NCBI RefSeq assembly: GCF_003574625.1
Contig: NZ_QNUJ01000009.1
Coordinates: 124,001-188,000 of the forward strand
DNA length: 64,000 nucleotides
Direction of reading: 5' to 3'
DNA from: Shinella zoogloeoides
GTDB taxonomy: Bacteria > Pseudomonadota > Alphaproteobacteria > Rhizobiales > Rhizobiaceae
The position numbers and the translations under genes are program-made. Below the pieces are notes generated by a model. That model saw nothing but the letters and a program-made list of their open reading frames with translations. It was not told the origin of the DNA and searched no databases. Of this stretch, positions 30,678 through 54,874 are shown one piece after another (position 1 is the first letter of the stretch; each line of letters opens with the position of its first letter).

Positions 30678-30767
30678 TGGCGGAGAGGGTGGGATTCGAA
30701 CCCACGATACCCTTGCAGGTATGCCGCATTTCGAGTGCGGTGCATTCGACCACTCTGCCACCTCTCC
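30678..30767 (-). tRNA. tRNA-Ser (CGA anticodon)
   Basis: Reverse-strand cloverleaf: acceptor GGAGAGG (5' end at 30767) pairs with CCTCTCC; the anticodon loop reads CTCGAAA with CGA; a long variable arm (GGCATACCTGCAAGGGTATC) is typical of tRNA-Ser; the T arm is GTGGGTTCGAATCCCAC. Discriminator G and the CCA end (30678-30680) are encoded in the DNA. Confidence 0.97.
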
Positions 30768-50430: not shown

Positions 50431-52320
50431 TCAATCCATGGCGTGGATGTCGCGGTCCTTCGTTTCCGGCAGGAAGAGAAGGCCGATGACCAGCGTGATG
50501 CCCGCGAAGATGATCGGGTACCAGAGGCCGTAGTAGATGTCGCCCTTGGCCGCGCTCATCGCGAAGGCCATCGCCGGAAGCAGACCGCCGAACCAGCCGT
50601 TGCCGATATGGTAGGGCAGCGACATGCCGGTGTAGCGGATGCGGGTCGGGAAGAGCTCGACCAACAGGGCGGCGATCGGGCCGTAGACCATCGTGACGTA
50701 GATCACGAGGACGGTCAGCACGGCGATGGTCATGACCCAGTTCACCTGCGCCGGATCGGCGACCATGGTGAAGGCGCCGCCCTTGTCGATCGTATAGACC
50801 GGCATGTCGGCGGCCCCGGCGGCTTCTTCCGCCGTCAGCAGCTTGCCGGCAACGAGATCGGCCGAAGACATGGTGGCCTTCTCGCCGCCGCGAACGGCAG
50901 CCGCATCAAGGCCGAGTTCCGGGTTGGCCGCGATGAAGGCGTCCAGCTTGGAGTCCGGAACCTTCGCCGCGCCGCGAACCAGCGGATAGCCCGCATCGTG
51001 AAGCGCGATGTTGATGCCCTTGCGGAAGGCCGCCTCGTGCGCCTTGGCGTCGTCGCCCGAAGCAACGGCGTCGTAGCTGGTGATCGTCTCTTCGCCGATC
51101 TTGACCGTGGCGGCCGTTCCGGCCGGCGCCGTGGTGACGACGTCATAGGGAACGGAGTTCTGCGTCAGGAACGAGGTGGCGATATCGCACGAGGTGGTGA
51201 ACTTCGCCGTGCCGGTCGGGTTGAACTGGAACTTGCAGTCGCCCGGGGCGGCGGTGACCGTGGCGCGGATCGTCGCCTGGGCTTCCGCCAGTGCCGGGTT
51301 GCCGGCCCAGGTCATGGCCTTGAACAGCGGGAAGTAGGTCAGCATGGCGAGCAACAGGCCGGCCATGATGATCGGCTTGCGGCCGATCTTGTCCGACAGC
51401 CAGCCGAAGAAGACGAAGAAGCCGGAGCCGATGAGCAGCGCGACCGCCACCATGATGTTGGCGGACTGGCCGTCGACCTTGAGCACGCCCGTCAGGAAGA
51501 ACAGGGCGTAGAACTGGCCGGAATACCAGACGACGGCCTGGCCGACGACGGCGCCGAACAGCGCCAGCAGCGCGATCTTGGCATTGCGCCACTGGCCGAA
51601 GGCTTCCGTCAGCGGCGCCTTGGAACCCTTGCCCTCTTCCTTCATCTTCGCGAAGGCGGGCGATTCGTTCATCTTCATGCGGATCCAGACGGAAACGCCG
51701 AGCAGAACGACCGAGACGAGGAACGGAATGCGCCAGCCCCAGGCCGCGAAAGCCTCCTTGCCAACGATGAACTGCACCGCCAGGATGACGATCAGCGACA
51801 GGAACAGGCCGAGCGTCGCCGTGGTCTGGATCCAGGAGGTGAAGTAGCCGCGCCGGCCGTCCGGTGCATGCTCGGCGACATAGGTCGCGGCACCGCCATA
51901 CTCACCGCCGAGCGCCAGGCCCTGCAGCATGCGCAGCGCGATCAGGATGATCGGCGCGGCGATACCGATCGAGGCGGCGCCGGGCAAGAGGCCCACGACG
52001 AAGGTCGAGAAACCCATGATCAGGATGGTCACGAGGAAGGTATATTTGCGGCCGACGAGATCGCCGAGGCGGCCGAAGACCAGCGCGCCGAACGGGCGCA
52101 CGAGGAAGCCGGCGGCGAAGGCGAGCAGCGCGAAGATGTTGCGCGTCGTCTCCGGATACTGGCTGAAGAAGGTTGCGCCGATATAGATCGCCAGCGAACC
52201 GTAAAGATAGAAATCGTACCACTCGAAGACGGTGCCGAGCGAAGAGGCGAAGATCACCTTCTTCTGCTCGCCCGTCATGGACGACGCCTTGGCGTTGCCC
52301 ACGGTCGAAACATTGGCCAT
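50431..52320 (-). CDS. MFS transporter, metabolite:H+ symporter (MHS) family with a large insertion
   Basis: The 629-residue protein begins at ATG 52320 (GGAGG upstream). TM1-TM6 and motif A GRLGDLVGRK plus the MHS signature LQGLALGGEYGGAATYVAEHAP are clear; the second motif A (GWLSDKIGRKPIIM) is at 306-319. Between TM9 (about 316-336) and TM10 (about 528-547) lies an insertion of about 190 residues, whereas MHS members are usually 430-550 aa long. It is predicted periplasmic and has Cys362 and Cys378 that could form a disulfide. Relatives carry alpha-ketoglutarate, shikimate or proline/betaine. Substrate unknown. Confidence 0.88.
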   Translation of the reverse strand: MANVSTVGNAKASSMTGEQKKVIFASSLGTVFEWYDFYLYGSLAIYIGATFFSQYPETTRNIFALLAFAAGFLVRPFGALVFGRLGDLVGRKYTFLVTILIMGFSTFVVGLLPGAASIGIAAPIILIALRMLQGLALGGEYGGAATYVAEHAPDGRRGYFTSWIQTTATLGLFLSLIVILAVQFIVGKEAFAAWGWRIPFLVSVVLLGVSVWIRMKMNESPAFAKMKEEGKGSKAPLTEAFGQWRNAKIALLALFGAVVGQAVVWYSGQFYALFFLTGVLKVDGQSANIMVAVALLIGSGFFVFFGWLSDKIGRKPIIMAGLLLAMLTYFPLFKAMTWAGNPALAEAQATIRATVTAAPGDCKFQFNPTGTAKFTTSCDIATSFLTQNSVPYDVVTTAPAGTAATVKIGEETITSYDAVASGDDAKAHEAAFRKGINIALHDAGYPLVRGAAKVPDSKLDAFIAANPELGLDAAAVRGGEKATMSSADLVAGKLLTAEEAAGAADMPVYTIDKGGAFTMVADPAQVNWVMTIAVLTVLVIYVTMVYGPIAALLVELFPTRIRYTGMSLPYHIGNGWFGGLLPAMAFAMSAAKGDIYYGLWYPIIFAGITLVIGLLFLPETKDRDIHAMD

Positions 52321-52520
52321 TTGTTTGTCCTCCACAAAACGGCGTATCGGGGCAGCCCCTATGCGGTCCGGTGTTTCTCCCTCAAACCCCGGACAGGGTG
52401 CGCCTGATGGAAGGATGGCAGAAAACCAATTGTCATATCAGCGCTGCTTTGGGCTTATGACTTTCGGCGTAAGACTAAAGTGGAGGCGGGCGGTGAAATG
52501 CGCCGGACCGCATGCAACAC

Positions 52521-52548
52521 TTGACTCTTCGGCAGATGAGCGTATTCA
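52521..52548 (+). promoter_or_regulatory. Probable promoter of the asd leader RNA
   Basis: TTGACT (52521-52526), a 16-bp spacer and TATTCA (52543-52548). A start near 52555 would place the ribosome site and leader ORF right at the transcript 5' end, as in classic attenuators. The rest of the 52321-52520 gap holds only the upstream region of the transporter gene and no ORF I can support. Confidence 0.6.
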
Positions 52549-52570
52549 GCACGCACGCAAGGGAACCGCC

Positions 52571-52690
52571 ATGTACCGCTTTGGACTGTCCATCGCCCGC
52601 ATGATCGCTCCGGCCTTCAACGCCGGACGGGTTCGTCATTGCGTATCGATTTCCAAAACAACGGCCAAAACGACGACGAAAACCGTCTGA
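52571..52690 (+). CDS. Leader peptide with Thr/Lys codon run, upstream of asd
   Basis: AAGGGA precedes ATG 52571 and a 39-codon frame (MYRFGLSIARMIAP... ending SKTTAKTTTKTV). Six of its last eleven codons are Thr and three are Lys; Ser and Ile precede. Threonine and lysine are end products of the aspartate pathway, whose second enzyme is Asd, the next gene. This is the composition expected of an attenuator leader peptide such as E. coli ThrL. A shorter start at the internal ATG 52601 is possible. No domain is recognised, so the product itself need not be stable. Confidence 0.7.
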   Translation: MYRFGLSIARMIAPAFNAGRVRHCVSISKTTAKTTTKTV

Positions 52691-52795
52691 CGTCTCTGGC
52701 CCACCGCTCTCTCCCCGGTATGGCCGGGGACCGAAACCCGCGTCACGGCCGGCGGGTTTCCCCTCCTGACCCGCGGAGAGACAGAGAAAGAGAGC
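52691..52795 (+). promoter_or_regulatory. Putative attenuator structure in the asd leader
   Basis: After the leader stop (52688-52690): CCCACCG (52700-52706) can pair with CGGCGGG (52750-52756, one mismatch), which would block hairpin B, GAAACCCGC (52733-52741) with GCGGGTTTC (52752-52760). Hairpin A is TCCCCGG (52712-52718) with CCGGGGA (52724-52730). GCTCTCT (52706-52712) also matches AGAGAGC (52789-52795), which covers the asd ribosome-binding site. Hairpin B is followed by CCCCTCC, not a clean U-run, so translational control is an alternative to termination. Confidence 0.5.
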
Positions 52796-52802
52796 TTTAG
52801 TC

Positions 52803-53837
52803 ATGGGTTTCAAGATCGCAGTCGCCGGCGCGACCGGCAATGTCGGCCGCGAGATGCTGAACATCCTTTCCGAGCGCGGTTTCCCGGCCGATGAGGTGGT
52901 GGCGCTCGCTTCCGCCCGCTCGCAGGGCACCGAAGTCTCCTTCGGCGACAAGACGCTGAAGGTGCAGAACCTCGAGAACTACGATTTCTCCGACACTGAC
53001 ATCTGCCTGATGTCAGCCGGCGGTACCGTCTCGCAGAAGTATTCGCCGAAGATCGGCGCGCAGGGCTGCGTCGTCATCGACAATTCCTCGGCCTGGCGCT
53101 ACGACGCCGACGTGCCGCTGATCGTTCCGGAAGTGAACCCGGACGCCATCGCGGGGTTCACCCGTAAGAATATCATCGCCAACCCGAATTGCTCGACCGC
53201 CCAGCTCGTCGTCGCGCTGAAGCCGCTGCATGACCGCGCCACCATCAAGCGCGTCGTCGTCTCGACCTACCAGTCCGTCTCCGGCGCCGGCAAGGACGGC
53301 ATGGACGAGCTCTTCAATCAGACGCGCGCCGTCTTCGTCGCCGATCCGATCGAATCGAAGAAGTTCACCAAGCGCATCGCCTTCAACGTCATCCCGCATA
53401 TCGATAGCTTCATGGAAGACGGCTACACGAAGGAAGAGTGGAAGGTTCTCGCCGAGACCAAGAAGATGCTCGATCCGAAGATCAAGGTGACCTGCACGGC
53501 GGTGCGCGTCCCGGTCTTCATCGGCCATTCCGAATCGGTCAACATCGAGTTCGAGAAGGAAATCACGGCGGACGAAGCCCGCGAGATCCTGCGCGAGGCG
53601 CCGGGTTGCCAGGTCATCGACAAGCACGAGAACGGCGGCTACATCACCCCTTACGAATCGGCTGGTGAAGACGCCACCTACATCTCGCGCATCCGCGAGG
53701 ACGCGACGGTCGAGAACGGCCTCAACCTGTGGGTCGTCTCCGACAACCTGCGCAAGGGTGCCGCCCTCAACGCCATCCAGATCGCCGAACTGCTCGTGGC
53801 CCGCGGCCTGATCAAGGCGAAGAAGCAGGCCGCCTGA
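52803..53837 (+). CDS. asd: Aspartate-semialdehyde dehydrogenase
   Basis: The 344-residue protein has the NADP-binding start FKIAVAGATGNVGREMLNIL, VIDNSSAWRYDADVPLIVPEVN, the catalytic Cys in IIANPNCSTAQLVVALKPL and QSVSGAGKDGMDEL. It reduces aspartyl phosphate to aspartate semialdehyde, the branch point to Lys, Met, Thr and DAP for cell wall. AAGAGAG lies eight bases before ATG 52803 and can be masked by the leader pairing described upstream. Asd is essential for peptidoglycan DAP. Confidence 0.98.
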   Translation: MGFKIAVAGATGNVGREMLNILSERGFPADEVVALASARSQGTEVSFGDKTLKVQNLENYDFSDTDICLMSAGGTVSQKYSPKIGAQGCVVIDNSSAWRYDADVPLIVPEVNPDAIAGFTRKNIIANPNCSTAQLVVALKPLHDRATIKRVVVSTYQSVSGAGKDGMDELFNQTRAVFVADPIESKKFTKRIAFNVIPHIDSFMEDGYTKEEWKVLAETKKMLDPKIKVTCTAVRVPVFIGHSESVNIEFEKEITADEAREILREAPGCQVIDKHENGGYITPYESAGEDATYISRIREDATVENGLNLWVVSDNLRKGAALNAIQIAELLVARGLIKAKKQAA

Positions 53838-53915
53838 TAGCGCAAGAGCGACGGAACGGTGCCTTTCCGCATTTCGGTGAAAAGTGGCAACGTTCCGTTA
53901 AGCAAGTTTAAATAA

Positions 53916-53953
53916 AAGTCCCGGTTGTTCCGTTTGAGAACAATCGGGACTTT
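53916..53953 (+). terminator. Terminator or long hairpin after asd
   Basis: AAAGTCCCGGTTGTTC (53916-53931) pairs with GAACAATCGGGACTTT (53938-53953) as a 16-bp stem with one G-U and a 6-nt loop. The following TTTGCTTTG is only weakly U-rich. Confidence 0.75.
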
Positions 53954-54052
53954 GCTTTGAGCCGGAACGGTCCGAAGCAGGGTGCGGTGACAGGAACCGG
54001 GGAGCATGCCATGCTCCCGCAGCGGATTTGACGAGAGATCACGGGGTTTTTC

Positions 54053-54874
54053 ATGGGCATGACAAAGAGCGTGGCCAAGGTGCTGGCCGCAATGATCGCC
54101 ACGGCGGCAGTGCCGGCGGCGGCCGAAGCCGCCCAGTGCGGCAAGGATGCGGGCGGTTTTCCGGCCTGGGTCGAGGCATTCAAGGGCGAGGCGGCCAGCC
54201 GCGGCATCAGCCGCTCGACGCTGGACAAGGCCTTTTCCAATGTCGACTATGCCCGCGCAACGATCCGCGCCGACCGCGGCCAGAAGAGCTTCAAGCTCTC
54301 GCTCGAGCAGTTCATGCAGAAGCGCGGCGGCCAGGCGATCATCCGCCGCGGCAAGGGCCTGAAGAAGCAGAATGCCGCGCTCTTCCAGCGCATCGAAGCA
54401 CGCTACGGCGTGCCGGCCGGCCCGCTGCTGGCGATCTGGGGCATGGAAACCGGCTTCGGCGGCTTCCTCGGCAAGGAGCACACGCTCTCGGCCGTGGCGA
54501 CGCTCGCCTATGACTGCCGCCGTCCGGAATATTTCACCAACCAGCTCTATGCCGCCCTGCAGCTCGTGCAGAACGGCACACTGAGCACGACGGCGCGCGG
54601 CGCGGCGCATGGCGAAATCGGCCAGACGCAGTTCCTGCCGGTGAACGTACTGAAATACGGCGTCGACGGCGACGGCAACGGCCGCATCGACCTCGTCGGC
54701 TCCAAGGCCGACGCGCTTGCCTCGACGGCGAACTTCCTGCGCGGCCACGGCTGGAGCGCCGGCGCGGGCTACCAGCCGGGCGAGCCGAACTTCGGCGCCC
54801 TGCAGGGCTGGAACGCCGCCAGCGTCTACCAGCGCGCGATCGCCATCATCGGCGCGGAAATCGACGGCAACTGA
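54053..54874 (+). CDS. Lytic murein transglycosylase (MltB-like, SLT_2)
   Basis: A 273-residue secreted protein: signal peptide of about 27 residues ending AAEAA, then the SLT_2 domain with catalytic Glu in AIWGMETGFGGFLGKEHTLSAVATLAYDC, GEIGQTQFLPVNVLKYGVDGDGNGRIDL and FLRGHGWSAGAGYQPG. No lipobox is evident, so it is periplasmic. Cuts the glycan strand with 1,6-anhydro formation. Terminator GGCGCGG/CCGCGCC with six Ts (54925-54951) follows. Confidence 0.93.
   Translation: MGMTKSVAKVLAAMIATAAVPAAAEAAQCGKDAGGFPAWVEAFKGEAASRGISRSTLDKAFSNVDYARATIRADRGQKSFKLSLEQFMQKRGGQAIIRRGKGLKKQNAALFQRIEARYGVPAGPLLAIWGMETGFGGFLGKEHTLSAVATLAYDCRRPEYFTNQLYAALQLVQNGTLSTTARGAAHGEIGQTQFLPVNVLKYGVDGDGNGRIDLVGSKADALASTANFLRGHGWSAGAGYQPGEPNFGALQGWNAASVYQRAIAIIGAEIDGN

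Follow-up and report, generated by a model that had tools for sequence, protein, structure and literature searches.

The leader upstream of asd

We analysed a 64,000-nucleotide stretch of the Shinella zoogloeoides genome (hereafter the window; contig NZ_QNUJ01000009.1, positions 124,001 to 188,000), in which asd, the gene for aspartate-semialdehyde dehydrogenase, is preceded by a short open reading frame (ORF) rich in threonine (Thr) and lysine (Lys) codons, a leader that is built like an attenuator. The ORF translates as MYRFGLSIARMIAPAFNAGRVRHCVSISKTTAKTTTKTV, with SKTTAKTTTKTV as its C-terminal end, and its last eleven codons comprise six Thr and three Lys codons. A previous sequence-only reading had reported this 39-codon ORF with its own ribosome site, together with a promoter-like TTGACT/TATTCA pair upstream, and direct reading of the letters confirmed the ORF, its composition and the coordinates of the promoter pair (Table 1). 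The leader peptide has no match in Pfam or NCBIfam. Rfam returned two matches at 52400-53000, both far below and none above the gathering score, and its sole match above the gathering score over the whole window is a tRNA at 30681-30767.

Table 1. Features of the asd leader region in window coordinates
Feature	Position	Strand	Basis
Promoter TTGACT-16-TATTCA	52521..52548	+	TTGACT 52521-52526, 16-nt spacer, TATTCA 52543-52548; read directly
Leader ribosome site AAGGGAA	52559..52565	+	Shine-Dalgarno-like motif (any of a broad set of six) 4-16 nt 5′ of start in 101/101 Rhizobiaceae
CCGGC/GCCGG hairpin within leader ORF (small)	52610..52626	+	Weak: mean z -1.2, 32 non-redundant relatives
Leader ORF, 39 codons, Thr/Lys-rich end	52571..52690	+	ATG 52571, TGA 52688-52690
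Thr/Lys codon run KTTAKTTTKTV	52655..52687	+	Family and order comparison; genome codon-string search
Element W (UCUCUGGCC)	52693..52701	+	Just past stop codon; pairs with Y
Element X (GCUCUCUCC)	52706..52714	+	Within W:Y loop; invariant in 32/32 aligned relatives
Element Y (GGCCGGGGA)	52722..52730	+	Partner of W; covariation in Rhizobiaceae
Hairpin H2, without U-tract	52733..52760 (arms 52733-52741/52752-52760)	+	Stem stability against shuffles
Element Z (GGAGAGA)	52775..52781	+	Complementary to X; 22-28 nt 5′ of asd start
AGAGAGC at asd ribosome site	52789..52795	+	7 pairs with X (GCUCUCU)
asd, aspartate-semialdehyde dehydrogenase	52803..53837	+	NF011456 and TIGR01296 above cut-off

We compared the region across 101 asd loci of Rhizobiaceae (21 of the genus, including this one, and 80 named records), across 80 of the 146 genomes of the order that have an asd match (three of the 80, L111, L114 and L116, belong to the same family) and across 40 of the 105 class-set genomes with such a match; L022, a weak second match and no asd, was left out. 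The leader score is the number of Thr/Lys codons within 12 codons of a short upstream ORF. Scores of at least 7 were found upstream of asd in 95 of the 101 Rhizobiaceae (the other 6 score 6), 45 of the 80 order genomes and 4 of the 40 class genomes, compared with 0.30%, 0.13% and 0.25% of dinucleotide shuffles, respectively. Lowering the threshold to at least 6 gave 101/101, 51/80 and 5/40. The earlier reading is supported as to a Thr/Lys-sensing type of leader before asd with its own promoter and ribosome site, and relatives conserve it. Furthermore, among 7142 short ORFs on both strands of the 80 named loci, 79 scored at least 7; 74 are the asd leader and none of the remaining five exceeds 7. 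Across the 5.37 Mb genome, the codon string for KTTTKT has a single mismatch-free match, which lies at asd; allowing up to two mismatches yields 109 matches versus 89 for the reversed control, and such loose matches are therefore meaningless.

The N-terminal half of the leader drifts while the C-terminal end remains Thr/Lys, and in 97 of the 101 Rhizobiaceae leaders one codon separates the last Thr/Lys codon from the stop. For structure tests, identical family leaders were removed (96 of 101 kept), and the order set was reduced to 46 leaders by leaving out scores below 6, L136 (too far), L149 (by eye no leader) and leaders sharing their first 45 nucleotides (nt); L221 of the class set was set aside by eye as well. 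In these 46 order leaders, 59% of the last codons encode Thr or Lys when read in frame, versus 11% and 4% when read in the two other frames; this is an illustration and no test because the leaders were chosen by that score. The synonymous codons are varied (Thr: ACC 154, ACG 107, ACA 29, ACT 10; Lys: AAA 87, AAG 26). Agrobacterium-type leaders end in ITAKTTIKTV and some others in KTMAKTTTKTV, so that codons for Ile and Met, the other products of the pathway, are present too. Upstream, TTGAC lies 49-56 nt 5′ of the leader start in 101/101 Rhizobiaceae loci (where several starts were possible, we used that whose ORF length came closest to 39 codons), and at the -10 position T is found in 98 and A in 97 of the 101. 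A simple sigma-70 scan of 51800-53200 reported no promoter because it demands T as the sixth base of the -10 box, which TATTCA lacks.

The hom and lysC loci of the S. zoogloeoides genome yielded no Thr/Lys leader, and 29 of the 80 order genomes score below 6 at asd. Low-scoring order loci include L115, L123-L125, L132, L133, L137, L140 and L143-L145; in some of the 29 (e.g. L140, L154) the end of the upstream ORF resembles what we take to be the end of leuB, and asd may sit in another operon there. The leader region is identical between a same-genus genome and Shinella fusca (L013, L023).

The earlier reading knew of no description of such a leader for asd in rhizobia, but one has since to be taken into account. 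In Sinorhizobium meliloti 2011, SEP5 is a short ORF that carries six Thr and three Lys codons towards its 3′ end and is located in the 5′ untranslated region of a gene that the paper names aspartate dehydrogenase; its translation was demonstrated by Ribo-seq and Western blot, and a role as leader peptide was suggested as possible (PMC10117765). It shares with the Shinella leader both this codon content and its placement, and from the paper's description we take SEP5 to be the asd leader; the Sinorhizobium loci L030, L031, L036 and L042 carry KTTAKTTTKTV, consistent with that description. The passages of the paper that we draw on state conservation in Sinorhizobium only and give no RNA mechanism. 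Thus a leader peptide at asd had already been suggested, and what is new here is its family- and order-wide spread and the alternative RNA helices described below.

This pattern of conservation bears on two explanations without amino-acid sensing. The leader ORF might mainly supply ribosomes to asd by re-initiation or coupling, as its place directly upstream of the gene and the general case for re-initiation at leader genes (PMC4833913, in the part used here) would allow; however, this leaves unexplained why just the Thr/Lys codons persist while the remaining peptide drifts, as well as the gap between leader stop and asd ATG (112 nt here, 104-120 nt in Rhizobiaceae), and we consider it improbable. 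We give still less credence, indeed very little, to the idea that the ORF arose by chance or that its peptide has some separate role. Detection of tagged SEP5 protein (PMC10117765) speaks for it, but what is conserved is above all the Thr/Lys codons, the location and the RNA helices, and the peptide matched no Pfam or NCBIfam family.

RNA elements between the leader stop and asd

The sequence-only reading had placed a classic attenuator here, with the hairpin at 52733-52760 (H2) as terminator and a competing stem of CCCACCG (52700-52706) with CGGCGGG (52750-52756). The two arms lie where they were placed, yet only six of the seven positions pair, A52703 facing C52753 as a mismatch, and the stem has little support in relatives: a 7-nt first arm with 6-7 partners in the hairpin region occurs in 22/96 leaders (23%), near the 16% of shuffles. 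H2 itself stood up as to position and as a conserved stem: measured against mononucleotide shuffles, its stability has a mean z of -2.0, and 67/96 Rhizobiaceae have z below -1.5. Its sequence varies between relatives, and in S. zoogloeoides it is followed by CCCUCC rather than U. Without a U-tract, H2 is no intrinsic terminator. On the + strand between leader stop and asd, a simple scan found no terminator-like site; a hairpin plus U-tract between leader and asd was present in just 3/96 Rhizobiaceae and 1/46 order leaders, and in 2/96 and 1/46 by a stricter scan.

Judged by the terminator of the classic type, the asd leader in S. zoogloeoides does not qualify as a classic attenuator. The conservation of both leader and hairpin and the classic form seen at asd in two other orders (see below) would speak for transcription attenuation with H2 as terminator, but the 93 of 96 relatives without hairpin plus U-tract and the near-chance, mismatched competing stem make it hard to believe for this family. 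The earlier interpretation is thus partly supported: its leader peptide is backed by the comparison, its terminator and antiterminator are not.

Next we examined the pairing of the elements past the stop codon. The helix W:Y, including an inner 4-pair stem that the first base of X also closes, has 96.8% of its cells paired in 32 Rhizobiaceae, where three of its pairs are changed on both sides and its covariation score beats 500/500 shuffles; in the 46 order leaders, a partner-swap test equalled it in 0/5000 trials. For X against the stretch -32 to -16 before asd, which contains Z, the same test gave 15/5000 in the 46 order leaders and 164/5000 in 43 non-redundant ones, while X against the last 18 nt before asd gave no order-level signal. 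For X with AGAGAGC, 98.7% of cells are paired in the 32 relatives, but without covariation; this helix is present in the minimum-energy fold of 52556-52806 and absent from that of 52688-52806. A helix over the asd ribosome site is thus predicted in silico, by the partner-swap signal and by the pairing with AGAGAGC.

The CCGGC/GCCGG hairpin within the leader ORF has z below -1 in 17/32 relatives and z -0.3 in the S. zoogloeoides genome; it may make RNA polymerase pause before the Thr/Lys run.

A putative Thr/Lys sensor with translational output

Sequence comparison shows the leader, its codon run, the W:Y and X:Z helices and the missing U-tract terminator. Collectively, these are best explained, in our moderately confident view, by a Thr/Lys sensor that acts on translation and whose outcome depends on which helix folds first. 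The asd product feeds both threonine and lysine, and a ribosome translating the leader would gauge charged tRNA-Thr and tRNA-Lys on behalf of asd. Under this hypothesis, when Thr or Lys runs short the ribosome would stall in the Thr/Lys run and W would stay free to pair with Y once Y is transcribed; X would then be locked in the loop, so that the asd ribosome site would be unpaired and asd on. With both amino acids plentiful, the ribosome would reach the stop codon and cover W, leaving X free to pair with two purine-rich stretches, Z and AGAGAGC, at the ribosome site of asd, which would turn asd off. The leader probably serves as a starvation sensor that hides or frees the asd ribosome site in place of the textbook stop of transcription.

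From these features we infer that the ribosome stalls, in which sense asd responds, that folding is kinetically trapped and that the output is translational instead of Rho-dependent, and an action on asd translation is the most likely of the outputs considered. Folding of nascent RNA reproduces the switch according to ribosome position. Against this explanation, equilibrium folding of the full-length leader shows no switch.

The same sensor could instead govern Rho-dependent termination, in which the C/U-rich stretch left open after ribosome release would admit Rho, and a stalled ribosome with W:Y would block it. The absence of a U-tract, the pyrimidine-rich stretch past the leader stop in the 32 aligned relatives and the transcription attenuation of a DUF1127 gene in S. 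meliloti, which is described, in the part of the report used here, as dependent on translation of an upstream ORF (PMC12218461), are all in keeping with this. However, the covariation of X with Z near the asd ribosome site would be superfluous for Rho, and the C/U-rich stretch can be heavily paired; we regard Rho as the unlikelier output, though a serious candidate.

Leader peptides that sense amino acids are known from textbooks as switches of transcription. One conserved leader that senses two amino acids at a branch-point gene, acting on terminators in some orders and probably on the ribosome site in another, would show the output of an attenuator changing in evolution, and would provide a specific, cheaply testable regulator of the supply of Thr, Lys and cell-wall diaminopimelate in rhizobia and their relatives.

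Leaders in two other orders, known systems and neighbouring features

The classic attenuation layout does occur at asd in other alphaproteobacterial orders. Two further orders were sampled because a leader had appeared there (loci L223-L263; 5 of the 41 loci were left out as their asd start was not matched by the search pattern), and Thr/Lys leaders scoring at least 7 were found in 11/14 and 8/22 readable upstream regions; the genomes of the first order are not independent because all are of one family. Every one of these leaders carries a hairpin with U-tract (11/11 and 8/8, compared with 21% and 4% of mononucleotide shuffles), and a stricter stem scan retained terminators in 11/11 and 3/8. 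In 15 of the 19, the 5′ arm of the hairpin can pair with the sequence just beyond the stop codon at -15 kcal/mol or better. They thus share gene, codon bias and post-stop pairing with the Rhizobiaceae leaders and, unlike these, have a U-tract after the hairpin. The other two class leaders, L185 and L204, have no terminator by the strict scan. Before asd, L231 and its relatives (the order of G206) have Thr/Lys leaders that look like classic attenuators, with terminators of the form GGCCGC...GCGGCCUUUUU; no mention of them was found in the literature searched, and no Rfam scan was run on these loci.

We therefore suggest that one sensor probably has two outputs across orders, the translational one in Shinella. 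We offer only tentatively, as a scenario with slightly less than even odds, that in early Alphaproteobacteria a Thr/Lys leader at asd drove a classic terminator, and that Hyphomicrobiales lost this terminator and rewired the post-stop pairing into a co-transcriptionally trapped cover of the asd ribosome site, so that a single sensor would respond to both amino acids made from the branch point.

Compared with known systems, the asd leader resembles thrL of the gammaproteobacterial thr operon in its Thr-codon leader peptide and alternative RNA stems, and differs in the gene controlled, in reading Thr/Lys rather than Thr/Ile, and in having none of the real U-tract terminator of thrL. In erm translational attenuation, a ribosome stalled on the leader also frees a downstream ribosome site, but what erm leaders detect is a drug, through arrest of the nascent chain, and not the supply of amino acids. 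The LEU element of actinobacterial leuA is different again: in the account used here, it is the run of Leu codons that base-pairs with the Shine-Dalgarno sequence, at the base of a pseudoknot (PMC1262725).

Directly 3′ of asd, AAAGTCCCGGTTGTT/AACAATCGGGACTTT at 53915-53953 resembles by eye an intrinsic terminator of asd, unlike the leader hairpin with its missing U-tract; a simple scan of 53800-54060 does not report it because its loop exceeds the limit of the scan. Upstream of the leader, a long divergent ORF on the minus strand (50431-52335) has its start facing the leader promoter, and its product, judged by eye from the translation, resembles an MFS-type transporter.
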